Positions 968-15,819 of a stretch of DNA of 32,002 bases are shown here, one piece after another (within the stretch, counting starts at the first letter, position 1; each line of letters starts with the position of its first letter). The notes beneath the pieces were generated by a model that did no database searches, was not told the DNA's origin, and was given only the letters and a program-made list of their open reading frames with translations. Source of the stretch: Acidimicrobiia bacterium (GTDB taxonomy: Bacteria; Actinomycetota; Acidimicrobiia; Spongiisociales; ZC4RG35); the NCBI GenBank assembly GCA_025937235.1, contig JAICRU010000030.1, positions 1 through 32,002 of the forward strand, written 5' to 3'. The translations under genes and the position numbers were made by a program.

Positions 968-1603
968 TCAGCCGAATCGATATCCGACCGAGCGCACCGT
1001 GGTGATCCAGGAGGCGCGCTCCTCGCCGAGCTTGGAGCGAAGACGGCGGATGTGGACGTCGACGGTGCGGGCCCCGCCGTAGTACTCGTAGCCCCACACC
1101 TTGGAGAGGAGCTGCTCCCGGGACCAGACCCGGATCGGGTTCTCGACCAGAAAGCGGAGCAACTCGTATTCCATGAAAGTGAGGTCGATCGGGTTGGAGG
1201 CGAGTGTCGCCTGGTAGTTGAGGGTGTTGAGCTCGAGGTCCTTGAACGCCACCAGGTGACCATTGGGCTCCTCCCGGGTCAGCCGCTGCACCCGAAGCCG
1301 GAGCTCCAGAGGGTCGACCGGGGAGAGGATGAAGTCCGAGATCCCCTTGGTCGATTCGATCAGGGCGAGTTGGTCTCCGGATAGCGCGATGACGATGGGC
1401 AGGGCGATCTCCTCGGCGATGCGCGACACCTCCCGCAGACGTCGTATCGGCTGGTCGCCGAGCTCGACCAGGAGCAGATCGGAGTCATTGATGACCCTGT
1501 CCTCCGGGACGAGCTCCGGTGCCCCGACGTGGGTGGCCCCGGCGAGGTGCAGCCCGTCGAGGATGCTCTCGGAGCAATCGATGGGATGGAACGCTACGTT
1601 CAC
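968..1603 (-). CDS. glnR: GlnR-like OmpR-family transcriptional regulator (atypical receiver)
   Basis: A 211-residue protein with a degenerate receiver domain (about residues 1-110) and an OmpR-type winged helix (about 118-211). The winged helix carries DLTFMEYELLRFL, VWGYEYYGGARTVDVHIRRL and a TTVRSVGYRFG end, closely resembling actinobacterial GlnR, the global regulator of nitrogen assimilation. The receiver lacks the usual acidic pocket. At the site of the conserved aspartate (LVDA in GlnR as I remember it) there is E47 in LLLVELGD, so ordinary phosphorylation is unlikely. The chosen start is GTG 1603, which overlaps the glnA stop in a GTGA arrangement; an upstream in-frame start at 1663 would run 60 nt further into glnA. 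Adjacency to glnA supports a nitrogen role. The GlnR assignment rests on remembered family sequence; another OmpR-type orphan regulator is the alternative. Confidence 0.8.
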   Translation of the reverse strand: MNVAFHPIDCSESILDGLHLAGATHVGAPELVPEDRVINDSDLLLVELGDQPIRRLREVSRIAEEIALPIVIALSGDQLALIESTKGISDFILSPVDPLELRLRVQRLTREEPNGHLVAFKDLELNTLNYQATLASNPIDLTFMEYELLRFLVENPIRVWSREQLLSKVWGYEYYGGARTVDVHIRRLRSKLGEERASWITTVRSVGYRFG

Positions 1604-2925
1604 AGGACCGGGAGATAGCTCTCTAGCTCGAACCGGGAGACATGGTGCTGGTAACGGTCCCACTCCTTGCGCTTGTTGCGGATGAACCAGTCGAACACGT
1701 GCTCCCCCAGGGCCTCGGCCACCAACTCCGACCCCTCCATGATGTCCAGTGCCTCGGACAGGGTCTCCGGGAGCCGCTTGGCTCCGGCGGCGGCGCGCTC
1801 CGCATGGGTCATGTGTTGGATATTCGCCGAGATCTCCGGCGGTAGCTCGTATCCCTCCCGAATCCCGGCCAGACCTGCGCAGAGGATCACGCTGAGAGTC
1901 AGATAGGGGTTGCAGGCGGCGTCAGCCGCCCGGTACTCGACCCGCACGCTGGATGGCTTGCCCTTCTTCACGGTGGGGACACGAACCAGCGCCGACTGGT
2001 TGTTGCGGGCCCACGAGATGTATATCGGGGCGTCGAAGCCGTCGACCAGCCGCTTGTACGAGTTGACCCACTGGTTGGTGATGGCCGTCATCTCGGCGGC
2101 ATGGCGAAGGATGCCGGCGATGAAGGCCTGTCCGATCTTGGACAGCCCACCCGGGGTGCCCGGCTCGTGGAAGGCGTTGACATCGTCCTCGAAGAGCGAG
2201 AGGTGGAGATGCATGCCCGAGCCGTCGTGATCCTCCAGCGGCTTCGGCATGAAGGTGGCGTAGATGCCATGTTTCAGCGCCACCTCCTTCACGGTCAGCC
2301 GGGAGGTCATGATGGTGTCGGCCATGGTCAGGGCATCGGTGTAACGGGCGATGATCTCGTGCTGGCTGGGGGCCACCTCGTGATGGGAGTGCTCGATCGG
2401 GATCCCCATCTGCTCCAGGGCGTTGATGGTGTCGCGTCGGTAGTCCTGGGCCACGTCGAGCGGGGTCAGGTCGAAGTACCCCCCGTGGTCGAGCACTTCC
2501 GGCTCGGGCCCGGAGTCCTTGAAGTAGAAGAACTCGAGCTCGGGGGCGGCGTAGAAGTTGTACCCCATCTCCGAGGCACGGGCCAGGTTCCGCTTGAGGA
2601 CATTGCGCGGGTCACCCGAGAACGGCTCCCCGTCCGGGGTGGCGATGTCACAGAACATTCGGGCCACCTGTTGCTCGGTTCGCCAGGGGAGGACACCGAA
2701 GGTGGAGGGATCGGGGCGGGCCAGCATGTCCGCCTCCTGGATCCGGGCGTACCCGTCGATGGCCGACCCATCGAAGGTCATGCCCTCCTCGAAGGCGACC
2801 TCGAGCTCTGCGGGGCTGATGGAGACCGACTTGAGGAAGCCCTGGACGTCGGTGAACCAGAGCCGGATGAACCTGATCCCGCGCTCCTCCACGGTCCGCA
2901 TGACGTATTCGGCCTGCTTGTTCAT
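1600..2925 (-). CDS. glnA: Type I glutamine synthetase
   Basis: A 441-residue glutamine synthetase that makes glutamine from glutamate, ammonia and ATP; the length matches the short GSI-alpha/GlnA2-like forms. Motifs in order are the beta-grasp LWFTDVQGFLKSV, DGSAIDGYARIQEADM, the metal-binding APELEFF, the ATP-site KPLEDHDGSGMHLHLSLF, NQWVNSYKRLVDG, and the C-terminal EYRAADAACNPYL. At the place of the adenylylated tyrosine of E. coli-type enzymes (NLYDLPP) this protein has NIQHM with Q370, so GlnE-type adenylylation is not expected. The ATG at 2925 (MNKQAEYVM) is preferred over an upstream in-frame GTG at 2967, which would overlap the preceding gene. The gene sits 28 nt after a broken MFS gene and overlaps the glnR-like start by four bases. 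Confidence 0.95.
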   Translation of the reverse strand: MNKQAEYVMRTVEERGIRFIRLWFTDVQGFLKSVSISPAELEVAFEEGMTFDGSAIDGYARIQEADMLARPDPSTFGVLPWRTEQQVARMFCDIATPDGEPFSGDPRNVLKRNLARASEMGYNFYAAPELEFFYFKDSGPEPEVLDHGGYFDLTPLDVAQDYRRDTINALEQMGIPIEHSHHEVAPSQHEIIARYTDALTMADTIMTSRLTVKEVALKHGIYATFMPKPLEDHDGSGMHLHLSLFEDDVNAFHEPGTPGGLSKIGQAFIAGILRHAAEMTAITNQWVNSYKRLVDGFDAPIYISWARNNQSALVRVPTVKKGKPSSVRVEYRAADAACNPYLTLSVILCAGLAGIREGYELPPEISANIQHMTHAERAAAGAKRLPETLSEALDIMEGSELVAEALGEHVFDWFIRNKRKEWDRYQHHVSRFELESYLPVL

Positions 2926-2953
2926 GTCGTGTCCCGAATCGGTTGAGCCCACT

Positions 2954-4120
2954 TTATGAGTTGCCACCGCCAGGAAGGGAATCGCCGGCCGCGACCTGGG
3001 GAGCGAGGGTGAGCCGGACCGCCACCAGTGAGGCGGCCGCGGCCAGGCTGACCACGACAGCGATGGCGATCGGCAGCGACCATGCCGTCGCCGCCACCCC
3101 GATCAGGGCCGGCGCCGCCATGAACCCGAGACGCGTGCCCACGGTGAGTGCGGCCAGTCCCGATCCCTCGCCGAACGAGCGATGCGATCCTGCCAGCTTG
3201 TAGAGGACCGGCAAGGCTGCGGATATGCCCAGACCCCATATCAGGAAGCCGGCCAATGCCGCCGCAACGGTCTGCAGCGCGACGACGAAGAGCATGGCGA
3301 CCACCGACACGACGACACCGGAGTACAGCGTCGGCACCGCCCCGAAGCGGTCGACGATGTGATCTCCGGCGAGACGGCCGACCAGCATCCCTGCGGTGAA
3401 CATGATCACTCCCGCTCCGGCCAGGGCCTACCCGCTCCCCGTCACGTCCACGAGGTAGAGAGCACTCCAGTCGAAAGGGGCGCCTTCGACGAAGACGGCG
3501 AATCCGCCGGCGAGCATGAGGCCTACGGCCAGCCTGCCCGACCGTGCGCCCTGCCGGGCCCTGGGCGGAGCATCGGGGATCAGGCGCATCGCATACAGGG
3601 CTGTCCCGATCCCGAAGACCGAGATGAGCGATAGTTGAGTCCCGAAGCGGACGCCGATGAGCACGGCCAGGGCGCTGACACCGGAGCCGATCAGGGTGCC
3701 GAGACTCCACAGACCGTGCAGCCTGGTCATGACGGAACGCCCGTGTGCCTCCTCGACCCTGACCCCAACCGCGTTCATCCCGACGTCGGCGTTGGCATCT
3801 AGGAAGCCCATGGCGGCCAGGACCAGTGCCAGGAGCGCGGCGCTGGGGGCCACCGCCACCAAGGGCAGGAACAGATAGACGGCCAGGCCTGCAGCCACCG
3901 CCGTGCGACGTGCCCCCAACTTGCCGACCACGACACCGCTCAGCGACGACCCGATCAGCGATCCCAACCCGCCGAGGGCCAGGGTCAGGCCCAGGGCGTC
4001 GAGGTGGATGCCGAGACGGTCTCGGATCTCGGGAAGACGGGGGAGCCAGCTCCCCACCACGACACCGTTCACGAAGAAGAGGAGGGCAACTCCGAGGATG
4101 GCCCGTCTGGTGCCGTTCAG
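2954..4120 (-). pseudogene. MFS transporter interrupted by an in-frame amber stop
   Basis: Two segments in the same frame make one 12-helix MFS permease. The N-terminal part (4072 down to 3431) holds LPRLPEIRDRLG, helices and an RTAVAAGL loop. A TAG at 3430-3428 follows VTGSG, and coding then continues seamlessly as ALAGAGVIMFTAGMLVGRLAGD to TAA at 2954. One C-to-T change (CAG to TAG) would explain it. The 5' end is also odd. Hydrophobic coding (ILGVALLFF) extends upstream of the first GTG at 4072 into the first helix, yet I find no ATG, GTG or TTG in that frame between 4073 and 4141; the only near-start is CTG at 4120, seven bases after GGGGA. Likely a decayed sugar/drug-type efflux permease. 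A sequencing error or stop readthrough are alternatives. Confidence 0.75.
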
Positions 4121-4139
4121 ATTGGCGTCCCCGACCGGT

Positions 4140-4460
4140 TTAGCCGGTCCGGCGGCGGGTGGCCAGCCACTTGCGTCGGAGAGAGCGTCGCTCCTCCTCT
4201 GTGGTGCCCCCCCAGATCCCCGCCCGCTGATTGGTTTCCAGGGCGTACTCGAGACAATCGTCGATCACGGCACAACCGAGGCAGATTGCGATGGCACGCT
4301 CGATGGCGGCGGTGTCTGTGTCACCGACGGGAAAGAAGAGGGCATGGCGATAACCAGAGCAAGCTGCTCTCTCCCTCCATTCAGCCGCCAGCTCCGTGGT
4401 CAGCTCGGCTGGGCCTGTGCTCACCAACGCGAGTTTGGCGGGTAAGGAACGGTTTGCCAA
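4140..4460 (-). CDS. WhiB-family iron-sulfur transcriptional regulator
   Basis: A 106-residue WhiB-like protein. Four cysteines, C34, C60, C63 and C69, give the canonical spacing C-X25-C-X2-C-X5-C that holds a 4Fe-4S cluster, followed by the family turn GIWGG (81-85) and a basic tail RRSLRRKW. Such proteins occur only in actinobacteria and their phages; they usually bind the primary sigma factor and adjust transcription in response to redox or nitric oxide, in development or in antibiotic resistance. Which paralogue this is cannot be told. The longest frame begins at TTG 4460; GTG 4424 (VSTGPAELTT) is an alternative, and neither has a strong ribosome-binding site. It is divergent from the TetR gene, and its TAA lies just upstream of the broken MFS gene. 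Confidence 0.9.
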   Translation of the reverse strand: MANRSLPAKLALVSTGPAELTTELAAEWRERAACSGYRHALFFPVGDTDTAAIERAIAICLGCAVIDDCLEYALETNQRAGIWGGTTEEERRSLRRKWLATRRRTG

Positions 4461-4531
4461 GACGGGACCGGATCAGGCTCGATCAGAAGCTTCGTGGTGT
4501 GTTCCTCCTCACTCTGGATAGCCTCTGAGCG
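4461..4531. promoter_or_regulatory. Divergent promoter region between whiB-like and tetR genes
   Basis: A 71-nt spacer that must hold the promoters of the leftward whiB-like gene and the rightward tetR gene. It includes the 8-bp palindrome GAAGCTTC at 4486-4493, a possible but weak operator core for the adjacent TetR regulator. I see no convincing -35/-10 pair. Autoregulation of tetR from here would be usual for the family but is inference. Confidence 0.35.
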
Positions 4532-5146
4532 ATGCCTCGAATCCGCGCCGCCTCGATCGACGAGCACAAGGCTCTGACGCGCAGGTCCCTTCTGGCATCT
4601 GCCAAGACGCTGATTGCCGAGGCCGGAACGGCCGAGATACCTCTGGGCGAGATCGCACTCGCCGCCGGGGTGGGCCGCACCACCCTGTACGACTACTTCG
4701 TCGACAGGGACGACCTGATCGCCACGCTGGTCGAGACAGAGCTGCCCGGGGTGATCGATGGCCTGATCGAAGCCGGCCCCGCATCCGGCGCTGCCGGCGA
4801 GCGCCTGGCCGATTTGGCTGGCCGAACGGTCGAGTTCGTGGCCAGCGACCCGGTTCTCGGCCTCATCCTGCACCGGGAGGTGGGGCGGATGGGCCCGGAG
4901 GCTCAGGAGCGAATCCGCGCCGCCCACTCGCACCTGGCCGACGCCATGATGGGCCTCTATCACCACGGTGTGAGAGTCGGGGAGTTCAGGGAGATGCCGC
5001 CCGATCTGGCCGGCCGTCTCATCCAGGACACGATCATGTCGGCCGCCAAGTCTCTGATCTCCGCAAGGGATCCACAGGAGCGGACCCCGGTCGTGATCGG
5101 GCACCTTCGACACTTTCTCTTAGGTGGGCTGCGTCGAGACCGTTAA
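4532..5146 (+). CDS. TetR-family transcriptional regulator
   Basis: A 204-residue regulator. Residues about 17-62 form the TetR DNA-binding domain: RRSLLASAKTLIAEAG, then IALAAGVGRTTLYDYFVDRDDLI, with the GVGRTTLYDYF recognition helix typical of the family. The remaining residues are a helical ligand-binding and dimerisation domain without recognisable specificity. It probably represses its own gene and a neighbour. The nearest candidates are the divergent whiB-like gene and ppk1, which begins 36 nt downstream on the same strand and could be cotranscribed. The start ATG 4532 (MPRIRAASIDEHK) is the first in the frame. The ligand is unknown. Confidence 0.9.
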   Translation: MPRIRAASIDEHKALTRRSLLASAKTLIAEAGTAEIPLGEIALAAGVGRTTLYDYFVDRDDLIATLVETELPGVIDGLIEAGPASGAAGERLADLAGRTVEFVASDPVLGLILHREVGRMGPEAQERIRAAHSHLADAMMGLYHHGVRVGEFREMPPDLAGRLIQDTIMSAAKSLISARDPQERTPVVIGHLRHFLLGGLRRDR

Positions 5147-5182
5147 CCATTTGATGATTCGGATGCTCTAAGAAGTGAAGAG

Positions 5183-7231
5183 ATGGAAGGCTTCGACCCG
5201 GAACATTTCCTGAACCGAGAGCTGTCCTGGCTCGAGTTCAATCGGCGGGTCCTGTCCCTGACGGGCAGGCCCGATTTCCCCTTGCTCGAGCAGGTCAAGT
5301 TCCTGGCTATCTGGGCGGCGAACCTGGACGAGTTCTTCCAGGTGCGGGTGGCCGGGCTCAAGGAGCAGGTGGGCCACGGCGTCGGGTTCACACCACCGGA
5401 CGGGCTCACCCCTAGCCAACAGCTGGCGGCGATCCGGAGTGAGGTGGAGGTCCAGTACGAGGCGATCTCCAAGCAGTTCCTATCGGAGGTTGCGCCAGCC
5501 CTCGCCAACGAGGGCATCGTGTTCAGCGACTATTCGACCCTCGACCAGGAGGACAAGGACTATCTCGACCTCCAGTTTCGGGACCTGGTTTACCCGGTGC
5601 TGACCCCCTTGGCGGTCGATCCCTCACACCCATTCCCGTACATCTCCAACCTCTCGCTCAACCTGGCCGTGGTCGTCAGGAACCCCGAGAGCGGTGTGAC
5701 TCGGTTTGCCCGGGTCAAGGTCCCTCCGATCCTGCCCCGATTCGTGGTGTTGCCTGACCTGGAACGGTTCGTGCCTCTGGAGCAGGTGATCGCGACCCAC
5801 TCGGGTGCCCTCTTCCCGGGCATGGAGATCCTGGGCCAGGACGTCTTCCGTGTCACCCGCAACGCCGACATCGAGGTGGAAGAGGACGAGGGCGGGGACC
5901 TGCTGATGGCGATCGAGTCGGAGCTGACCCAACGGCGGTTCGGGAACGTGGTCCGGCTCGAGGTCCACCCAGACATGGGCGAGGAGGTCCTCGATCTGTT
6001 GATGCGGGAGATGGGGGCAACTGAAGACGACGTGTACCGGATCGAGGGGCCCCTAGGCCTCGCCGGTCTCTGGGGGTTGTATGACCTGGAGCGCCCGGAG
6101 CTCAAGTTCGATGTGTTCAACGGGGTCACCCCGGCTCGTCTGGCCACGCAACCCGGTGAGGTGGTGGACATCTTCAGCGTCATGAAACAGGGTGACCTCT
6201 TGGTGCATCATCCCTACGACTCCTTCTCCTCGACCGTGGAGCCGTTCCTCGAACGCGCCGCTCGAGACCCAAAGGTGCTCGCCCTCAAGGTGACCCTCTA
6301 CCGCACGTCCAGCGACAGCCCGATCATGGCCTCCCTGATCAAGGCGGCCGAGAACGGCAAGCAGGTCGCTGCCCTGGTCGAGCTCAAGGCCCGCTTCGAC
6401 GAGGAGCGAAACATCGAATGGGCGCAGCGTCTGGAGGATGCCGGTGTCCATGTGACCTACGGAGTCGTCGGGCTGAAGACGCACACCAAGATCGCTCTGG
6501 TGGTCAGGCGTGAGGGTGACGGCGTCGTGCGCTACGCCCACATCGGAACCGGCAACTACAACGAGAAGACGGCCCGAACCTATGAGGACATCGGGATGTT
6601 CACCACCGATCCAGGTATCGGCGCCGATCTCTCCGACCTCTTCAATTATCTGACCGGTTACTCACGACAGACCCGGTACCAGCGTCTCGCCGTCTCGCCG
6701 AACGGGGTGCGCAGCCGGCTCACGGAGCTGATCGAGGAGGAAGCGTCCCGAGCCGACGGCCACATCACCCTGAAGATGAACTCGCTCGTCGACGCCGCCA
6801 TGATCGAGTCGCTCTACGAGGCATCTCGGGCCGGCACACGCGTCGACCTGATCGTGCGCGGCATCTGCTGTCTTCGACCCGGAGTCGAGGGCCTCTCGGA
6901 GAACATCCGGGTGAGATCCATCGTCGGCCGCTATCTCGAGCACTCGCGCATCTACAGATTTGGCGCCAGGGGACGGACACGCACCTACTTCATCGGTTCC
7001 GCCGATCTGATGCCGAGGAATCTGGACCGACGGGTCGAGGCCCTGGCCCCCATCATCGACCCCGATCTACAGTTCCGCATCGACGAGGTCCTCGACGTCC
7101 TCATGGCCGACGACAACCTGGCCTGGTCTCTTGGTCCCGACGGGAAGTGGGAGAGGGTGCCGACGACCGGGGTAGACGCCCATGTCGCGCTCCAGGAGTT
7201 AGCCCGGGCTCGGGCCACCGCCCTGCTCTAG
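5183..7231 (+). CDS. ppk1: Polyphosphate kinase 1
   Basis: A 682-residue Ppk1, full length for the family (about 690). It reversibly transfers the ATP gamma-phosphate to long-chain polyphosphate, storing phosphate and energy. The N-terminal domain opens with FLNRELSWLEFNRRVL, followed by NLDEFFQVRVAGL and the DPSHPFPYISNLSLNL segment. The two C-terminal PLD-like domains carry the autophosphorylated histidine H453 in YAHIGTGNYNEKT and the second conserved histidine H587 in EHSRIYRFG, then FIGSADLMPRNLDRRVE. The ATG at 5183 is preceded by a purine-rich stretch (AGAAGTGAAGAG). It lies 36 nt after tetR and about 1.5 kb from the pst locus. No PHO-box-like repeat is visible in its short upstream gap, so cotranscription with tetR is possible. 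Confidence 0.97.
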   Translation: MEGFDPEHFLNRELSWLEFNRRVLSLTGRPDFPLLEQVKFLAIWAANLDEFFQVRVAGLKEQVGHGVGFTPPDGLTPSQQLAAIRSEVEVQYEAISKQFLSEVAPALANEGIVFSDYSTLDQEDKDYLDLQFRDLVYPVLTPLAVDPSHPFPYISNLSLNLAVVVRNPESGVTRFARVKVPPILPRFVVLPDLERFVPLEQVIATHSGALFPGMEILGQDVFRVTRNADIEVEEDEGGDLLMAIESELTQRRFGNVVRLEVHPDMGEEVLDLLMREMGATEDDVYRIEGPLGLAGLWGLYDLERPELKFDVFNGVTPARLATQPGEVVDIFSVMKQGDLLVHHPYDSFSSTVEPFLERAARDPKVLALKVTLYRTSSDSPIMASLIKAAENGKQVAALVELKARFDEERNIEWAQRLEDAGVHVTYGVVGLKTHTKIALVVRREGDGVVRYAHIGTGNYNEKTARTYEDIGMFTTDPGIGADLSDLFNYLTGYSRQTRYQRLAVSPNGVRSRLTELIEEEASRADGHITLKMNSLVDAAMIESLYEASRAGTRVDLIVRGICCLRPGVEGLSENIRVRSIVGRYLEHSRIYRFGARGRTRTYFIGSADLMPRNLDRRVEALAPIIDPDLQFRIDEVLDVLMADDNLAWSLGPDGKWERVPTTGVDAHVALQELARARATALL

Positions 7232-7265
7232 GGGCTCCGGATCCCCACCCTCTCGTGAGCTGATT

Positions 7266-7320
7266 CACCAAGGAGTTGTCGGGCCTCGATTTCTCCAGCT
7301 CCCGTCCTCGCTCCTTGGTG
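7266..7320. terminator. Inverted repeat in the convergent ppk1/cyclase gap
   Basis: In the 151-nt gap between two converging genes, CACCAAGGAG (7266-7275) and CTCCTTGGTG (7311-7320) are perfect 10-bp inverted arms. The 35-nt loop itself contains CGGG and CCCG, which could extend a nested stem. There is no adjoining T-run, so this is not a textbook intrinsic terminator. Position suggests a two-way terminator or transcript-end structure. Confidence 0.4.
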
Positions 7321-7382
7321 GAGAGTCGGCTGAACCACATCGTTGGAGGATGGTGAGGTCCTCCGCGCCGAGAGGTTCCGCC

Positions 7383-8588
7383 CTATTCCCCGCGTCGGGC
7401 GCTGTGCAGCTGCATCGCCCCGGCCACTCCCTTCAGGTCCACCGGACCGATCTCGGTGAAGGCCAACCCGGACCCGGTCGAGGCGTCGACCACCTCCTGG
7501 CTGACCACGACCTCTCCGGGCCTGGCATACTCCGCGATGCGGGCCGCGATGTTGACGGTGCGGCCGAAGTAATCCCCCTCCTGGAAGAGAACCGGTCCGG
7601 CATGCAGCCCGACATGGGCGGAGGAGACCCCGAGCCGCGGCGCCGCGTCCACCATGTCCAGGGCCGCGACCACACCTTGGGCCGGCTCCGGGAAATGAAA
7701 CATGACACCGTCGCCCAACCACTTGATCGCTTTTCCCCCGTGTCGCACCGAACGCTGCTGGACCATGGTGGACAGGCTCCGGGCGAGGTCGGCTGCAGCT
7801 TCGTCCCCCCGCTCCTCCGTGAGCCGGGTGTAGCCGGTGAGGTCCAGGAAGCAGATCGCCGGCACACGATCCGGGGGCTGGTAGAGCCCAGCCGTCTCCA
7901 ACGCGCTCTCCAGACCTTCCAGTATGTTCCTGATCCAGGCATTTGCCTGCTGCCCGTGATAGATGGCAAGCACGGCCTGGTCACTGGCCCCGGCCAGGGT
8001 CGGTGACAGCTCCCTCGACACCTCCGAGAGGGCATGGGGCCCCTCCCCGGCTCGGATCAGCGGCATCATCACCTCATCTCGCCACCAGTCCGATTCCGTT
8101 TCGGCGATTCGGCGCATGCTCTCGCCGTAGACACGCAGGGCGCGTTCGATGACACTGGGGCGAAAGCCATGCTCGTGCTGGATGGTGATCAGGGGCAGCA
8201 CCTCCAGCTCGCTCTCACGGATGCGGTCCTCAGGCACCGCTGGGGCAAATCCCATCGCCTCCCTGATGGCGGTCAGCACGTCCACCGGCAAACCCGTCTC
8301 TTCACTCAGCTCGGCGTAGGTCGTCTCGCTCAGAGAGGACCAGCGGTCATAGGTCGCGATGTCCATGAAATCGAGCGTCAGGACACCACGCCGGAGTGCC
8401 TCGCCCAATCCCTCCAACGGCAATCCGGCCATCTCGAGTGTCTGCAGGATTCGAGCCCTTTGGACGTCACTGTCGGCGTAATCGCCCGCGACGTCTGGCT
8501 CGATGATCCGGAGCCGAGCCAGTTGTCCCACGAAGGCGCGATCGAGCCCGGCACGATCGGCCACCTCTGCTTCCGAGTAACCCGGCAT
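7383..8588 (-). CDS. Class III adenylate/guanylate cyclase with two MerR-like N-terminal segments
   Basis: A cytoplasmic class III nucleotide cyclase of 401 residues. The catalytic domain (about residues 243-400) has the metal-binding D249 in ICFLDLTGYT, K289 and D293 in IKWLGDG, and the DYFGRTVNIAARI stretch that holds the base-selecting and transition-state residues; it therefore looks active, most likely making cAMP. The N-terminal part resembles the actinobacterial cyclase regulatory domain of the Rv1264 kind. One MerR-like helix-turn-helix begins YSEAEVADRAGL (about 4-70), and a second similar stretch surrounds LSEETGLPVDVLTAIREAMGF (about 95-170). ATG 8588 is preferred to an in-frame GTG at 8666, because the domain begins right after it and the longer form would run through the PHO-box-like repeat. 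It is divergent from pstS. The signal sensed is unknown. Confidence 0.85.
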   Translation of the reverse strand: MPGYSEAEVADRAGLDRAFVGQLARLRIIEPDVAGDYADSDVQRARILQTLEMAGLPLEGLGEALRRGVLTLDFMDIATYDRWSSLSETTYAELSEETGLPVDVLTAIREAMGFAPAVPEDRIRESELEVLPLITIQHEHGFRPSVIERALRVYGESMRRIAETESDWWRDEVMMPLIRAGEGPHALSEVSRELSPTLAGASDQAVLAIYHGQQANAWIRNILEGLESALETAGLYQPPDRVPAICFLDLTGYTRLTEERGDEAAADLARSLSTMVQQRSVRHGGKAIKWLGDGVMFHFPEPAQGVVAALDMVDAAPRLGVSSAHVGLHAGPVLFQEGDYFGRTVNIAARIAEYARPGEVVVSQEVVDASTGSGLAFTEIGPVDLKGVAGAMQLHSARRGE

Positions 8589-8621
8589 CGGGGGCCCGAG
8601 GCTACGCAGAACGCACTGCAA

Positions 8622-8639
8622 GTTCACCTCTCGTTCACC
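8622..8639 (+). promoter_or_regulatory. PHO-box-like direct repeat upstream of pstS
   Basis: GTTCACC-TCTC-GTTCACC: two identical 7-bp units with an exact 11-nt period, ending 102 nt before the pstS ATG. This is the arrangement bound by PhoP in Streptomyces and resembles RegX3-type sites. A further related heptamer, GTTCATC, lies at 8674-8680, out of register. The TACGTT at 8671-8676 could be a -10 element, placing the repeat near the -35 region, which would suit an activator. The likely binder is the response regulator encoded at 13377-14093. No other 11-nt GTTCACC tandem was noticed in the window. Confidence 0.7.
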
Positions 8640-8741
8640 GACGGGCCAACGGCCGGTAAACGGCACCCCATACGTTCATCTCGGGCGGTGGGGTCCCCCG
8701 CGGCCCGGATGAAACCGATCGTGAGCAAGGAGCACATTGGG

Positions 8742-9842
8742 ATGAAGTCCCGAACCATCCACCTGCTGGGTCTCGCTGTCGTGACTGCAATGGTCGTGGC
8801 CGCCTGTGACATCGACGCCGGTGATTCGACCCCGAGCACCGGGGCGGCGGCAGACACCACGGAAGCCGCACCCGATACCACCGAGCCCATGGAGGAGCCG
8901 ACGACGTCTGCGGGAGGCGGCGAGGGCGGTGACCTGTCGGGGAACATCGTGGTCTCGGGTTCGTCGACCGTCGAGCCCATCACGGCACGGGTCGGCGAAG
9001 CCTTCGACGGCGCCAACCCCGGCGTAGCCACCTCGGTCGAGGGACCGGGCACCGGTGACGGGTTCGCCAGGTTCTGTGCCGGCGAGACCGACATATCCGA
9101 TGCCTCCCGCCCGATCTCGGAGGAGGAAATCGCCACCTGTGAGGGCGCCGGTGTCGAGTACGTCGAGCTCCACATCGCCACCGACGGGCTGACGGTCATG
9201 ACCAATCCGGCCAACGAGGCGGTGACCTGTCTCGCCTATTCCGATTTGTACGCCCTGCTCGGCCCGGAGTCGGAGGGCTTCGCCAGTTGGTCCGATGCCA
9301 ACGAGCTCGCCGGTGAACTTGGCGCACCCAACGCCCCCTATCCCGAGGAGCCACTGGTGATCACCGCTCCGGGTGAGGAGTCGGGCACCTACGACAGCTT
9401 CGTGGAGCTGGTCATCGCCGACATATCCGAAGAGCGTCTGGGTGAGGACAACGATTTCACCAGGGCCGACTACAACGCCTCGGCGAACGACAACGTGATC
9501 GTCCAGGGGATCACCGAGAACCCCACCTCGCTGGGGTGGGTTGGCTTTGCCTTCTTCGAGGAGAACCAGGCCGCGCTCAAGGCCATCGAGGTAGACAGCG
9601 GCGACTCGGGATGCGTGGCCCCGACCACCGAGAGCATCGCAAGCTTCGAGTATCCGCTGTCAAGACCCTTGTTCATCTATGTCAAGACCAATGACGTGGC
9701 CAGCAGGCCGGACCTGACCGCCTTCGTCGACTTCTACCTGTCCGACGACGGTCTGGCCTTCGTTTCGGAAGCCGGCTACGTCCAGATCCCGGGGGAGGAC
9801 ATCGAGGCGACCCGAGCGGCATGGGAAGACGCCAAGGGTTGA
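8742..9842 (+). CDS. pstS: Phosphate ABC transporter substrate-binding lipoprotein PstS
   Basis: A 366-residue exported lipoprotein that captures inorganic phosphate for PstCAB. A lipoprotein signal peptide (MKSRTIHLLGLAV, lipobox VAAC) is followed by a Thr/Glu/Pro-rich linker to about residue 60. The binding domain opens with IVVSGSSTVEPITARVGEAF and includes GPGTGDGFARFC, DISDASRPI and GEESGTYDSF, the PstS phosphate-loop motifs. A cysteine pair near FCAGETD and ATCEGAG may form a disulfide. ATG 8742 is chosen because AAGGAG at 8727-8732 is well spaced and the signal peptide starts there; the frame remains open far upstream but that part is antisense to the cyclase. It is the first gene of the pst-pho cluster. 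Confidence 0.95.
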   Translation: MKSRTIHLLGLAVVTAMVVAACDIDAGDSTPSTGAAADTTEAAPDTTEPMEEPTTSAGGGEGGDLSGNIVVSGSSTVEPITARVGEAFDGANPGVATSVEGPGTGDGFARFCAGETDISDASRPISEEEIATCEGAGVEYVELHIATDGLTVMTNPANEAVTCLAYSDLYALLGPESEGFASWSDANELAGELGAPNAPYPEEPLVITAPGEESGTYDSFVELVIADISEERLGEDNDFTRADYNASANDNVIVQGITENPTSLGWVGFAFFEENQAALKAIEVDSGDSGCVAPTTESIASFEYPLSRPLFIYVKTNDVASRPDLTAFVDFYLSDDGLAFVSEAGYVQIPGEDIEATRAAWEDAKG

Positions 9843-9849
9843 GGTCGGG

Positions 9850-9879
9850 CCCGGGGTCGGGCAGAGGCCAGGCCCCGGG
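9850..9879 (+). other. GC-rich stem-loop between pstS and pstC
   Basis: CCCGGGGTC (9850-9858) pairs with GGCCCCGGG (9871-9879), nine pairs counting one T-G wobble, around a 12-nt loop; flanking GGTC and GACC could compete. No T-run follows, so it should shield the 3' end of pstS mRNA or terminate only partly, favouring high PstS relative to the membrane and ATPase subunits. Confidence 0.5.
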
Positions 9880-9901
9880 ACCTAACCTCTACGAGACGCC
9901 A

Positions 9902-10831
9902 ATGGCCACCGTCGATGACCAGCGGGACATCTCGATCGACCTGACCGGAGATGTCCGCCGCCGTCGCCGGGAGAGCCTGGTCAAGGCGACCTTCTTCGCA
10001 GCCGCCGCGGTCTCGATCCTGATCTCGGTGGCCATCGTGATCGCCCTCATCGGGAAAGCGTGGGCTTTCGTGTCATCGATCGAGTTGAGTCAGCTGTGGG
10101 CAGACGGCTGGTTCCCGCGCAGGGGCCGGTTCCAGTTGGCCGCCTTGATCGTCCACACACTGATGGTCACCGGGATCGCCATGGTCGTGGCGGTGCCCTT
10201 CGGACTCGGGTCCGCCGTCTACCTGTCGGAGTACGCCAGATCAGGGGTCCGAAGAGTCCTCAAGCCCACCCTCGAGATCCTGGCCGGAATTCCGTCCGTC
10301 GTCCTCGGTTTCTTCGCCCTCCAGTTCATCACTCCCAACATCGTGCGCGGCATGTTCCCCGGGGCGCAGAGCGCCAACTTCCTCGCAGCCGGTATCGCGG
10401 TCGGAATACTCACCATCCCGTTGGTGGCGTCGGTGTCCGAGGATGCGATGAGGGCCGTGCCTTCCTCGCTGAGAGAGGCCTCATATGGTCTGGGCGCCAA
10501 GCGGTGGCATACCGCCCTCCGCGTCGTCTTCCCGGCGGCGATCTCCGGGATCATCGCTGCCGTGATCCTGGGAATCTCGAGGGCCATCGGTGAGACCATG
10601 GTCGTGGCGCTCGCCGCCGGGCTGAACGGCATCATGACCTTCAACCCGACCGAGGGCGGGCTGACCATGACCGGGGCCATCGCCAATCTGGCGGTGGGAT
10701 CCGACCAGGTGGCCGGAGATGTCGCCGCTTTTCAGTCGCTCTTCTTCGTAGGCCTGGTCCTTTTCATCTTCACGCTCGCGCTGAACATCCTCAGTGGGCG
10801 AATGGTCCGACGCTACAGACAGAGGTACTGA
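9902..10831 (+). CDS. pstC: Phosphate ABC transporter permease PstC
   Basis: A 309-residue inner-membrane permease that forms the phosphate channel with PstA. It has about six transmembrane segments, with a first helix near FFAAAAVSILISVAIVIALI. It has the PstC-type motif VYLSEYARSGVRRVLKPTLEILAGIPSVVLG (split here by its helix turn) and the EAA-like cytoplasmic loop LREASYGLGAKRWHT that docks onto PstB, then ISRAIGETMVVALAAG. ATG 9902 (MATVDDQRDIS) is preferred over an earlier in-frame ATG at 9821 that would overlap pstS and pass through the stem-loop. The gene follows pstS by 59 nt and precedes pstA by two bases, so it is in the same operon. Confidence 0.95.
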   Translation: MATVDDQRDISIDLTGDVRRRRRESLVKATFFAAAAVSILISVAIVIALIGKAWAFVSSIELSQLWADGWFPRRGRFQLAALIVHTLMVTGIAMVVAVPFGLGSAVYLSEYARSGVRRVLKPTLEILAGIPSVVLGFFALQFITPNIVRGMFPGAQSANFLAAGIAVGILTIPLVASVSEDAMRAVPSSLREASYGLGAKRWHTALRVVFPAAISGIIAAVILGISRAIGETMVVALAAGLNGIMTFNPTEGGLTMTGAIANLAVGSDQVAGDVAAFQSLFFVGLVLFIFTLALNILSGRMVRRYRQRY

Positions 10832-10833
10832 GG

Positions 10834-11799
10834 ATGACAACCGGCACGGCAGCCATCACGACCACAGAACTGGTTCGGCGATCGATCGAAGGGCGTCGCT
10901 TCAGCCCGGTCAACGCCCTGATCGCCTTCACCCTCCTCTTCACGCTGCTCTCTTCGGTCGTGATCCTGGTCACCCTGCTCGTCGACACCATCGCGGCGGC
11001 CCTCCCGGTCTTCGCCACCCGGGGGTTCTCCTTCATCACCTCCTCACTATCACCCCGAGCCGAGGCGGCCGGCATCTGGCAGGGGATCATGGGGTCCTTG
11101 GCTTTGACCGGCTTCGTGATCGCGGTCGCTTTCCCTCTCGGTGTGGCTGCCGCGGTCTATCTGGAGGAATACGCCCCGGACAACCGGCTGACCAGGTTCC
11201 TCAACGCCAACATCCGCAACCTGGCCGGGGTGCCGTCGATCGTCTATGGGATCCTCGGGCTCTTCCTCTTCGTCGAGGTGTTCATGCGTGGCATGCTCGG
11301 TGCCTCCGAGGGGATCGCAGGGCGAAACGTCGTGGCCGGAGGTCTCACGTTGGCCGTGCTCGTGCTACCGATCATGATCATCACCACATCTGAGGCCCTG
11401 CGGGCCGTCCCAAGCGGGCTGAGAGAGGCATCTCTGGCGGTGGGGGCCACCCGCTGGGAGACGATCCGACATCATGTCCTGCCTGTTGCCGTGCCGGCCA
11501 TCCTGACCGGGTCGGTGCTCACGATCGCCCGGGCTTTCGGTGAGTCCGCCCCACTGCTCCTGGCCGGCGCCCAGCTATCGCTCTTCTTCACTGTCGCCTC
11601 CGACTCGTCGTTCTACGACTTGATGCTGACCCAGCCCTACACCGCCCTGCCGATCATCGTCTTCAACTTCGCTCGTCAGCCTCAGGCCGAGTTCGTGGCA
11701 CTGACGGCCGCCTCGATCGTCGTGCTGCTGGTGATGCTGCTCTCGGTCAACGCGGCGGCGGTACTGGCCAGGGACCGCTACGAGCGGAGATACCGATGA
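10834..11799 (+). CDS. pstA: Phosphate ABC transporter permease PstA
   Basis: A 321-residue permease partner of PstC. Six or so hydrophobic helices are visible, with the PstA hallmarks [37 protein letters not shown], the ATPase-docking [15 protein letters not shown], and [15 protein letters not shown]. The ATG at 10834 sits two bases after the pstC stop, with AGG close upstream. Its TGA overlaps the pstB ATG as ATGA, which indicates translational coupling in the pstSCAB operon. Confidence 0.95.
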
Positions 11800-12689
11800 T
11801 CGACCAGGAAGGCGAGCCGATGACGACACAGGCGGAGCCCAGCTCCAGACTCGAGGCACCGGTCAAGCTCGCCCTGGGCTCAGCGGATGGCGCGATCGAG
11901 CTGCCGGAGGAGCGATCGCCGATATTCGTGTTGAAAGGGCTCAACGTCTATTACGGGGCTTTCAGGGCGGTTCGCGACGTCGACATGACGATCCGTCAGA
12001 ATCGGATCACGGCCCTGATCGGGCCTTCTGGCTGCGGCAAGTCCACCGTCCTCCGATGTTTCAACAGGATGAACGATCTCATCGAGACCGCCCGCGTCGA
12101 GGGCCAGGTCCACTACCACGGGGTGGATCTGTACGGGGAGAGGGTCGATCCGGTCGAGGTCCGCCGCCGGATCGGGATGGTTTTTCAGAAGCCCAACCCG
12201 TTCCCCAAGAGCATCTACGAGAACATCGTGTACGGGCCGCGCATCGCCGGCTTCAAGGGCAACTACGACGACCTCGTCGAGGAGGCGCTCGTCAAGGCTG
12301 CGCTCTGGGATGAGGTGAAGGATAAGCTCAAGGAGTCGGGGATGGCACTCTCCGGCGGCCAGCAACAACGTCTGTGCATCGCCCGGGCCATTGCCACCAG
12401 CCCTGACGTCGTCCTCATGGACGAGCCATGCTCGGCACTCGATCCGATCGCCACGCTGAAGATCGAAGAGCTGATGCTCGACCTTAAGAAGGACTTCACG
12501 ATCGTGATCGTCACCCACAACATGCAGCAGGCGGCCCGAGTCTCAGACCAGACAGCGTTCTTCACGGTCAACGTCAGCGAGGAAGGGCAGCGAACCGGGT
12601 ACCTCGTAGAGTTCAACGAGACAGAGCAGATCTTCACCTCACCCGAGAAGAAACAGACCGAGGACTACATCACGGGGCGCTTCGGATGA
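11796..12689 (+). CDS. pstB: Phosphate ABC transporter ATP-binding protein PstB
   Basis: A 297-residue ABC ATPase that powers phosphate import. After a variable leader of about 40 residues come Walker [10 protein letters not shown], the PstB-specific NRMNDLI and [15 protein letters not shown], the signature [14 protein letters not shown], Walker B VVLMDEP, and the H-loop THNM. The leader is longer than in typical PstB (about 250-260 residues); an internal ATG at 11820 (MTTQAEPSS) could be the real start. ATG 11796 overlaps the pstA stop, and the pstB TGA overlaps the phoU ATG, so the whole cluster looks translationally coupled. Confidence 0.95.
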
Positions 12690-13393
12690 CCAGTGCCGCA
12701 GACACCAACGTTCATTTCCATCAAGAGCTGGAGAACCTGGAGCACGCCGTCATCGGGATGGTGGACCGCGCCGAGCACATGGTGGAGATGGCAGTGGAGT
12801 CCGTGGTCAGCGGGGATATCGAGCTGGCCGAGCACGTGGTCCGTCTCGACGAGGAGATCGACAAGATCTATTTCGACGTTCACCACCAGTGGACCACGCT
12901 CATGGCCCGATTCCAGCCACTCGGGTCCGATCTGCGAAAGATGACCGTTCTCCTCCAGCTCAACGCGACCTTCGAGCGGATGGGTGACCAGTGTGTGAAC
13001 ATCGCCAGGGTGGCTCAGCAGAACGAAGGGCTGCCGCGTGTGGAGAGGATCTGCGACCAGATCCGGGAGATGGGGGATCTGGTCCGACCCATGATTCGGA
13101 CCTCGATCGAGGCATATCTCCGCCAGGACCTGGACGAAGCTCGGCTCCTGCCCGCGATGGACCAGCCTGTCGATCGCCTCAATGCCAATATGTTCAAGGA
13201 GATCGTGGCCGTCGCCTCCGACCCTCGGATGCTGGAGTGGGCCACCAAGATGATCATGGCTTCGCGGGCCTTGGAGAGGGTTGGCGATCAGGCCGTCGAC
13301 TTCGCCGAGCAGACGGCGTATCTCATCACCGGACAGCGAGCCCAATTCGTCGAAGCCGGTCTGGACGAGTCGGTCGATGAACAGAGCGGATGA
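12686..13393 (+). CDS. phoU: Phosphate signalling regulator PhoU
   Basis: A 235-residue all-helical PhoU with two three-helix repeats. Visible landmarks are [16 protein letters not shown] near the start, the metal-binding-type [17 protein letters not shown] in the first repeat, and [19 protein letters not shown] in the second. PhoU links the Pst transporter to the PhoR/SenX3-type kinase and keeps the regulon off when phosphate is plentiful. It starts inside the pstB stop (ATGA) and its 3' end overlaps the response-regulator gene by 17 nt, so transporter, PhoU and the two-component pair form one unit. Confidence 0.94.
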
Positions 13394-14093
13394 GACCCGC
13401 AGACACCGCGTCCTGGTGGTAGAGGACGAGCCCGGGCTGGCCGAATCGGTCAGATACGCCCTCGATGTGGAAGGGTTCGACGTTCTGGTCTCCGACACCG
13501 GGGTCAGTGGGCTCGAGTCGGCCCGTGTCAACGACCCCGATCTGGTGGTGCTCGACCTGATGTTGCCCGGCATGTCCGGTCTCGATGTCTGCCGTCAGAT
13601 ACGGCTCTCCTCGGACGTGCCGATCATCATGCTCACCGCCAAGGAGGCCGAGTCGGACAAGGTGGCCGGCCTCGAGCTGGGGGCGGACGACTACATGACC
13701 AAGCCCTTCTCCATGCGCGAGCTGGTAGCGCGGATCCGCGCCCAGTTGAGGAGGGCGGCGAAGAGCGGAGCCCTGGCCGAGTCCAACGAAGTGCTTCGGG
13801 GTGGTCCGATCGAGCTCGACATCGACGCCCATCAGGCGCGCCTGGACGGGAAGTCGGTCGACCTGAGGCCGAAGGAGTTCGAGCTGCTGGAGTCGCTGAT
13901 GCGACGTAGAAACCGACTGTCGGCGCGTCACACCCTCCTCGACGACGTGTGGGGGCCGAGCTACTTCGGAGACACCAAGACCCTGGATGTCCACATCAAG
14001 CGTCTCAGGCAGAAGCTGGAGGCCGATCCCTCCCATCCGCAACTGATCGTCACCGTCCGGGGTCTGGGCTACAAGTTCATCGATGAGCAGTAG
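13377..14093 (+). CDS. PhoB/RegX3-type OmpR-family response regulator
   Basis: A 238-residue response regulator. The receiver (11-125) has the acidic pocket E16/D17, phosphoacceptor D60 in LVVLDLMLPGMSG, T87 and K109, so it is complete. The OmpR winged helix (about 140-237) includes VDLRPKEFELLESLM, FGDTKTLDVHIKRLRQKL and VRGLGYKF. It most likely activates pstS and other phosphate-starvation genes through the GTTCACC repeat at 8622-8639. ATG 13377 ([15 protein letters not shown]) fits the domain start; a longer frame from 13281 would overlap phoU heavily. It overlaps phoU by 17 nt and the kinase gene by 11 nt. It could be named phoB, phoP or regX3, so no symbol is assigned. Confidence 0.92.
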   Translation: MNRADETRRHRVLVVEDEPGLAESVRYALDVEGFDVLVSDTGVSGLESARVNDPDLVVLDLMLPGMSGLDVCRQIRLSSDVPIIMLTAKEAESDKVAGLELGADDYMTKPFSMRELVARIRAQLRRAAKSGALAESNEVLRGGPIELDIDAHQARLDGKSVDLRPKEFELLESLMRRRNRLSARHTLLDDVWGPSYFGDTKTLDVHIKRLRQKLEADPSHPQLIVTVRGLGYKFIDEQ

Positions 14094-15819
14094 GGTCCCG
14101 GGTCGGACATCGCTCGCCCTCCGCTTCCTTCTCTATTTCGCTCTCCTCTATCTGGTCCTGATCGGGGCGATGGGCTGGTTCCTCACCCGATCGGTGGCTT
14201 CCGCCTTCACCGAGGGTCTGTTCGACCAGGTGGAGTCGGCTGCGGGCATCGCCTCACACGGGATGCCCTCGGATGAGACGGGGCTGGCCGACTGGGCGGA
14301 GGAGGCATCCGATGCGGGGGGCTACCGCTTCACCGTCATCGACCCTGACGGGGTGGTCCTGGCTGACTCTCACTCAGACCCGTTGTCGATGGAGAACCAT
14401 GCCGACCGTCCCGAGGTCGCAGCCGCTCTCGCCGGGGAGACGGGCCGTGACCTCAGGGACAGCGACACCACCGGGTTCGACCAGCTCTATGTCGCCGTCC
14501 CCACCGAGGGCGGTTTGGTGCTTCGGCTATCTGCCTCTTCCCGCGAGGTGGCCGCCGAGACCTGGCCCTATCGCAGTTCGGTGATCCTCATCTCGATCGT
14601 CGTCGGCGTGTTGGGGCTGCTTCTGGCCGCCTGGCTGGCGCGGACCATGGCCCGTCCGATCAACCAGCTGACCGAGCAGACCAGGGCGCTCATAGGCGAC
14701 GGCGGCGACCACAGGGTGGCTCGATCGTCGGTGCAGGAGATCGACGCGCTAGCGATGGCGATAACCGACCTGGATGCATCCAACAGATCGCGTCTCAAGG
14801 AGTCGGAGCGCTCGTCGTCGACTCTCGAGGTGGTCCTGGCCGCCCTGCCCCAGGGAACCATCCTCTTCGATGAGGCGGACGCGGTGGTCTACGCCAACCC
14901 TTCCGCCCACAGCCTTCTCGGCGCCGTCCCACCGACACTTGCCGGTCTGGCCCCCTTTTCGTTCCAGGATGCGGTGCACGATGCGCGGGTCACGGCCGAG
15001 ACGACCTCGACAATGGCAGAGCACGGCAAGCCGGCCCGGGTGTTGCGGGCCATCGCCACGCCATTCGCCGCAGATCGGAGGGTGCTGCTGGTGGTGGTCG
15101 ACGTCACCGAACGGGAGCGAGCCGCTTCGGTGCGTCGCGACTTCGTCGCCAACGCCTCTCATGAGCTGAAGACGCCGGTCTCGGCGATCATGGCCTCCTC
15201 GGAGGCCCTCCAGCTGGCGGTGTCGAGAGGAGACGCCTCGGCCGTCGACTTCGCCCGTCAGATAGGTGGCTCGGCCGCGCAGCTCGATCGTCTCGTCGCC
15301 GATCTGCTCGACCTGTCACGTCTGGAACGCGACGAGCCCGAGCTGGAGCCCTTGGCCTTTCAGCATCTGGTCCGTGAGGAGGTGGAGAGGGTTCGCACCG
15401 GCGCCGAGGAGCGAGGGGTCGAGTTGACGATCGACCTGGCCGATGTGCATGTCGCCGGGAGCCGCCGTGACCTGGCAATCGCCGTGCGAAACCTCCTCGA
15501 CAACGCCATCAGGCACACCCCGGCCGGCGGCAAGGTCGGAGCCGAGCTCGAGGTGGTGGGTGAGGACGCCGTGCTCAGGATCAGTGACACCGGTGAGGGG
15601 ATCCCGACTCGCGACATCGAGCGGGTGTTCGAGCGCTTCTACCGGGTCGACAACGCACGGGCCCGGGCGACAGGTGGGACCGGTCTGGGACTCGCCATCG
15701 TCAAACACGTGGTGGAGAGTCATGGGGGCAGTGTCACAGTGGAGAGCGAGCTGGGAGCAGGCTCGCTTTTCACGATCCATCTGCCCCTGCCCGACGACCA
15801 AACATCTGAGCGCAACTAG
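14083..15819 (+). CDS. PhoR/SenX3-type sensor histidine kinase
   Basis: A 578-residue membrane kinase. Residues 13-35 form the first helix, a roughly 125-residue extracytoplasmic domain follows, and a second helix (SVILISIVVGVLGLLLAAWLA) leads to a HAMP segment starting with ARPINQLTEQT. A PAS-like region (about 245-345) precedes the kinase core: H-box H360 in NASHELKTPVSAI, N-box NLLDNAIRHT, G1 DTGEGIPTRD, F-box FERFYRV and G2 GTGLGLAIVKH. It should phosphorylate the adjacent regulator under control of PhoU and PstB. Compared with mycobacterial SenX3 it has a larger extracytoplasmic domain. It begins 11 nt inside the regulator gene. Confidence 0.92.
   Translation: MSSRVPGRTSLALRFLLYFALLYLVLIGAMGWFLTRSVASAFTEGLFDQVESAAGIASHGMPSDETGLADWAEEASDAGGYRFTVIDPDGVVLADSHSDPLSMENHADRPEVAAALAGETGRDLRDSDTTGFDQLYVAVPTEGGLVLRLSASSREVAAETWPYRSSVILISIVVGVLGLLLAAWLARTMARPINQLTEQTRALIGDGGDHRVARSSVQEIDALAMAITDLDASNRSRLKESERSSSTLEVVLAALPQGTILFDEADAVVYANPSAHSLLGAVPPTLAGLAPFSFQDAVHDARVTAETTSTMAEHGKPARVLRAIATPFAADRRVLLVVVDVTERERAASVRRDFVANASHELKTPVSAIMASSEALQLAVSRGDASAVDFARQIGGSAAQLDRLVADLLDLSRLERDEPELEPLAFQHLVREEVERVRTGAEERGVELTIDLADVHVAGSRRDLAIAVRNLLDNAIRHTPAGGKVGAELEVVGEDAVLRISDTGEGIPTRDIERVFERFYRVDNARARATGGTGLGLAIVKHVVESHGGSVTVESELGAGSLFTIHLPLPDDQTSERN

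Follow-up and report, generated by a model that had tools for sequence, protein, structure and literature searches.

The tandem repeat GTTCACC-TCTC-GTTCACC, found in front of the phosphate-binding gene pstS in the 32,002-nt window (the whole stretch of DNA analyzed here), is very probably the promoter-distal half of a PHO operator of the PhoP/RegX3 type, which would activate the pstSCAB-phoU-regulator-kinase operon at low phosphate. This assignment is supported by the conservation of the repeat, its fixed spacing, its placement before pst genes, and the kinship of the regulator encoded in the cluster. It is a well-supported, ordinary Pho operator, with an architecture that is fuller than the one recognized in the preliminary description. 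The features of the region are as follows (TIGR numbers denote NCBIfam models with their own cutoffs):

7383..8588, minus strand: class III nucleotide cyclase with Ad_Cy_reg and Guanylate_cyc domains; likely start, ATG at 8588
8622..8628, plus strand: half-site 1, GTTCACC (7/7)
8633..8639, plus strand: half-site 2, GTTCACC (7/7)
8644..8650, plus strand: third position of the 11-nt register, GGCCAAC (4/7); unconserved in relatives
8655..8661, plus strand: degenerate half-site GGTAAAC at offset 33, a register match adjoining the expected -35 place
8671..8676, plus strand: predicted -10 element of pstS, TACGTT (TAnnnT at offset 49)
8727..8732, plus strand: Shine-Dalgarno-like AAGGAG of pstS, read from the sequence
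8742..9842, plus strand: pstS, phosphate-binding lipoprotein (PF12849; TIGR02136, 202.4 bits, just below the cutoff of 206.6)
9821..10831, plus strand: pstC (TIGR02138, above cutoff)
10834..11799, plus strand: pstA (TIGR00974, above cutoff)
11796..12689, plus strand: pstB (TIGR00972, above cutoff)
12686..13393, plus strand: phoU (TIGR02135, above cutoff)
13377..14093, plus strand: RegX3-like response regulator (Response_reg and Trans_reg_C domains; nearest solved structure, RegX3)
14083..15819, plus strand: PhoR/PnpS-like histidine kinase (resembles the PnpS and PhoR models, under their cutoffs)

Conservation and layout of the operator

The tandem occupies positions 8622 to 8639 without a single mismatch, and its first base lies 120 nt from the pstS ATG at 8742. 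The 11-nt period and the location on the pstS (plus) strand are exactly as first described. The sequence has the makeup of a PHO box: two GTTCACC-like 7-nt direct repeats with a 4-nt spacer, located 5' of a phosphate gene on the same strand and kept among relatives. Among named relatives, those closest at this locus are metagenome assemblies of Acidimicrobiia, and the closest pstS gene (locus L009) is 95% identical. In 27 of 58 loci, ppk precedes pstS in the same orientation.

Conservation was assessed in 48 pstS upstream regions, namely, the window and 47 of 80 related loci; the excluded loci were those with only a short upstream region, some from Chloroflexota, one that was a second copy, and L067 to L088. 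On the pstS strand, the best tandem scored at least 12 of 14 in 35 of these regions, compared to 1 of 48 on the opposite strand and 0 of 960 dinucleotide shuffles. The respective mean best scores were 12.1, 9.15, and 8.95. Absence of the repeat from close relatives, which the preliminary description had named as evidence against its proposal, was not observed: the relatives carry the repeat, and its identification as a PHO box agrees with the retention of GTTCACC-like tandems before the pst genes. In some Chloroflexota (loci L032 and L036), the regions 5' of pstS contain tandems resembling GTTAACC-N4-CTTAACG. We take these to be intermediate between the GTTCACC box and the CTTAACC type of cyanobacteria.

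Judging by the aligned promoters, the conserved operator extends beyond the tandem, which makes up its upstream half; the predicted half-sites lie at offsets 0, 11, and 33, and a putative -10 element lies at offset 49. This layout was derived from 41 pstS promoters that were anchored on a tandem with a score of at least 11 (7 of the 48 were dropped), with the downstream columns left free. Of the 41 promoters, 37 have a TAnnnT sequence starting exactly at offset 49, which fixes the spacing from the box to the core promoter; at other offsets, it occurs in ∼0.03 sequences per offset. The most heptamer-like downstream offset is 33 (mean of 3.80 matches of 7, versus 1.81), and offset 22 is at background (mean of 1.78 of 7). 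The common pattern, accordingly, is unit, unit, free position, degenerate unit, and -10 element. An inverted third unit was also considered, given that the minus-strand reading of GGTAAAC in the genus is GTTTACC, and was rejected; the direct-repeat register fits the 41 promoters better. A scan of positions 7200 to 8760 for the sigma70 consensus returned no match, as expected for an activator-dependent promoter.

A 56-nt profile whose training set excluded the window and L009 scored 41.8 bits at position 8622, with the next score in the window being 0.5. The tandem is also the sole perfect copy in the 3.08-Mb draft genome (G000), where 41 places match it with two or fewer mismatches: the site itself, 4 others in the window, and 36 that were fetched separately. 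The corresponding count in a backwards control was 7, and the excess can be put down to codon content as its candidate cause. Of the 36 fetched near-matches, 24 are in strongly codon-biased frames, and the remaining 12 are less clear; no phosphate gene was recognized by eye among the neighbors of these 12, and the 56-nt profile gave nothing above 8.7 bits on the 36 stretches. The best tandems in the stretches with the Pit gene and two GDPD genes score 10 to 11 of 14, and no PhoD gene was found in this genome.

A sequence model (referred to as R1) was then built from an alignment of 40 promoters, all of them pstS promoters, with L066 left out. In this genome, it returns a single strong match (E value of 2.5e-8; runner-up, 0.86); trained as it was on pstS promoters, the model revealed no further box of this kind next to the genome's other phosphate genes. 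Over 60 genomes, R1 yields 34 matches at E values of ≤1e-3, in 32 genomes. All 34 precede pst genes, 31 of them directly 5' of pstS on the same strand, and 16 precede PstS proteins that are at most 38% identical to that of the window, beyond the divergence of the training set. In genome G003, the match follows ppk and precedes a lipoprotein start (judged by eye) that is cut by the contig end. In G036, the box is found 5' of a phosphate-binding-type protein (PF12849) and a permease. In G021 (locus L206, positions 1263 to 5699), the pst cluster is split, with pstS transcribed divergently from pstB-phoU-regulator-kinase, and each of the two units has its own operator of identical layout.

At the relaxed threshold of E ≤ 0.1, there were 63 matches, 39 of them upstream of listed pstS genes and 3 more resolved as pst linked. 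Five of the remaining 21 were fetched, and no pst gene was seen in the 3 of these that were inspected. Conversely, 9 of the 48 listed pstS places in relatives (a list that omits weak or short pstS matches) had no R1 match at this threshold, although these absences are soft, as only the best first-look candidates were scored. One weak match (E value of 0.02; locus L209, positions 1820 to 1893) ends shortly 5' of a gene for a long secreted protein in genome G010, which is a possible further Pho target.

These data yield an operator model that can be applied to an uncultured actinobacterial class, in which phosphate control becomes predictable from metagenomes. A search for literature naming both "Acidimicrobi-" and "PHO box" found none.

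The regulator and the proposed switch

The response regulator encoded at 13377..14093, described earlier as PhoB/RegX3-type, indeed combines a receiver and a winged-helix domain. Its best match among solved structures is RegX3 (2oqr; E value of 6.7e-73), followed by MtrA (2.7e-62), and its gene is linked to phosphate genes, all of which places it in the RegX3/PhoP type. It does not qualify as PhoB, with a score of 233 bits against the curated cutoff of 296.2 for NCBIfam model TIGR02154. Of the 58 pst loci L009 to L066, 31 also carry a gene for a regulator of this RegX3-like kind. The genome contains 11 Trans_reg_C matches, so the reader of the site has to be assigned by linkage and similarity, and on these grounds the cluster regulator is the probable one.

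Under phosphate limitation, the RegX3-like regulator, once phosphorylated, can be expected to bind head to tail: two subunits would occupy the perfect heptamers at 8622 and 8633, and at least one further subunit would occupy the weak site at 8655, on the same face of the DNA and two turns past the second heptamer. The bound regulator, standing in for a -35 element, would recruit RNA polymerase to the predicted -10 element TACGTT; transcription would start shortly thereafter and could cover the entire cluster in one transcript. The switch would also feed back on itself, because the regulator and the kinase are encoded downstream in the same cluster. Phosphate-responsive autoregulation had been proposed in the preliminary description; it is retained here as a prediction from gene order, and the second box, in front of pstB-phoU-regulator-kinase in L206, lends support to regulation of the operon that encodes the regulator.

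The neighboring cyclase and alternative explanations

The divergently oriented gene next to the operator codes for a predicted class III nucleotide cyclase, residues 91 to 400 of which match the Rv1264 structure 1y10 (E value of 1.4e-17); its N terminus shows an additional, weak MerR-like match, below the cutoff. Five homologous cyclase loci (L120 to L124, two of which agree over the part compared) encode proteins with 46 to 53% identity, which align only from residues 21 to 31 of the long form; their likely starts, read by eye, correspond to ATG 8588. The earlier preference for the shorter cyclase is thereby strengthened, and a start at GTG 8666 is unlikely; the 26 extra codons of that form would consist of older pst promoter sequence. 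This 3.1-Mb genome contains 19 matches to the window cyclase, which is many nucleotide cyclases for its size.

Similarity between the window and L009 ends just past the ppk stop codon, at ∼7233, and resumes at ∼8584. In L009 and L010, ppk and pstS are separated by a gap of ∼200 nt, and none of 85 related pst loci, many of which have short flanks and some of which represent the same genome twice, showed a cyclase gene. On this evidence, the most plausible reading is that the cyclase gene was inserted, in this lineage, between ppk and a much older pst promoter, a small natural experiment in a gene landing beside an existing switch.

The same evidence bears on the idea of a second role for the site in controlling the divergent cyclase, with the regulator at 8622 to 8639 blocking or helping a promoter that has its -10 element at TAGCCT (8604 to 8599) and its -35 place in half-site 1. 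Such control is compatible with the distance of 34 nt between ATG 8588 and the box and with the presence of TAnnnT sequences (read by eye) 6 to 8 nt before the starts of homologous cyclases, and TAGCCT is the sole TAnnnT on the minus strand of 8561 to 8760. However, the cyclase is an apparent newcomer, there is no box before the homologous cyclases, TAGCCT is 10 nt, not 6 to 8, from the ATG, and it is already present in L009, which has no cyclase, so that it makes a weak -10 candidate for this gene. Dual control by the site is therefore unlikely. Any effect on the cyclase would, from the geometry, more probably be interference than joint activation. It is likewise rather improbable that the gene, having landed fairly recently ∼35 nt from an ancient Pho operator, is by now wired in, so that phosphate starvation directly alters the output of cyclic nucleotides, with a block of the cyclase promoter as the most likely route.

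The shared control of cAMP production and phosphate uptake, raised in the preliminary description, is accordingly not supported, with no cyclase at any of the 85 related pst loci and an insertion next to an older operator in this one. A precedent for a cAMP link is provided by the cAMP-dependent GlxR, reported to bind the pstS promoter of Corynebacterium glutamicum (PMC4415409), and CRP-like sites in the window show no excess (7 versus 9.7 expected); the link is weak, possible but unsupported.

A further alternative accepts the operator as real and has it read mainly by another OmpR-family regulator, either MtrA-like or the GlnR-like product of 968..1663. The 11 Trans_reg_C matches leave room for such a reader, and the PhoP and GlnR networks are reported to interact in Streptomyces (PMC4415409). 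It is nonetheless very unlikely, given that the cluster regulator is nearest to RegX3, that such a regulator is encoded in the same locus in more than half of the loci surveyed, that a box stands in front of the regulator's operon in L206, and that MtrA sites, as presented in PMC3353115, look different.

The gene at 968..1663 (minus strand) encodes an OmpR-type DNA-binding protein with no recognizable receiver domain, located beside a glutamine synthetase gene (1600..2967, minus strand). It presumably resembles the GlnR type of orphan regulator.

Finally, a coincidental repeat within a cyclase coding sequence starting at GTG 8666, suggested by the frame being open to that codon and by most near-matches elsewhere in the genome being coding (24 of 36), is exceedingly improbable, as the repeat is kept in relatives without the cyclase and the homologous cyclases align only downstream of the extra N-terminal part.

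Comparison with known systems

The PHO box of Streptomyces coelicolor PhoP is reported to have a GTTCACC core (PMC4415409), and the pstS operator of Streptomyces PhoP is described as consisting of 11-nt direct repeat units with this core (PMC4415409, PMC7866108). The window shares with it the 11-nt GTTCACC direct repeats 5' of pstS; in contrast to Streptomyces, it has two strong units, one unconserved position, one weak unit, and a fixed -10 element, and its regulator and kinase genes sit in the pst operon.

In Mycobacterium, the RegX3 box is given as GT/GTCAcc-n4-cG (PMC7884335). RegX3 is the nearest solved relative of the window regulator, but, unlike SenX3-RegX3, the predicted regulator and kinase genes here are located downstream of pstSCAB-phoU. 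The neighboring predicted cyclase resembles the Rv1264-type adenylyl cyclase in its match to 1y10 and its Ad_Cy_reg and Guanylate_cyc domains; it differs in the extra MerR-like N terminus.

The closest parallel in spacing is the pstS promoter of Escherichia coli K-12, which has CTGTCAT units at -106 and -95, CTTACAT at -84, CTGTCAC at -73, and TATTTT at -56. Its units fall at offsets 0, 11, and 33, as in the window pattern, with a weaker one at 22, and the distance from the first TCA to the -10 element is 47 nt in both (offsets 2 and 49 in the pattern). The heptamer is CTGTCAT in E. coli versus GTTCACC in the window, and the third E. coli unit is still recognizable (CTTACAT). The E. coli spacing has thus been kept despite the differing repeat letters. 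PhoB is reported to act at E. coli pstS via polymerase recruitment, and structural models described in the same source favor strict spacing between the pho box and the core promoter (PMC10294691). Judging by the promoter anatomy, polymerase recruitment is most likely the mechanism of the window operator as well.
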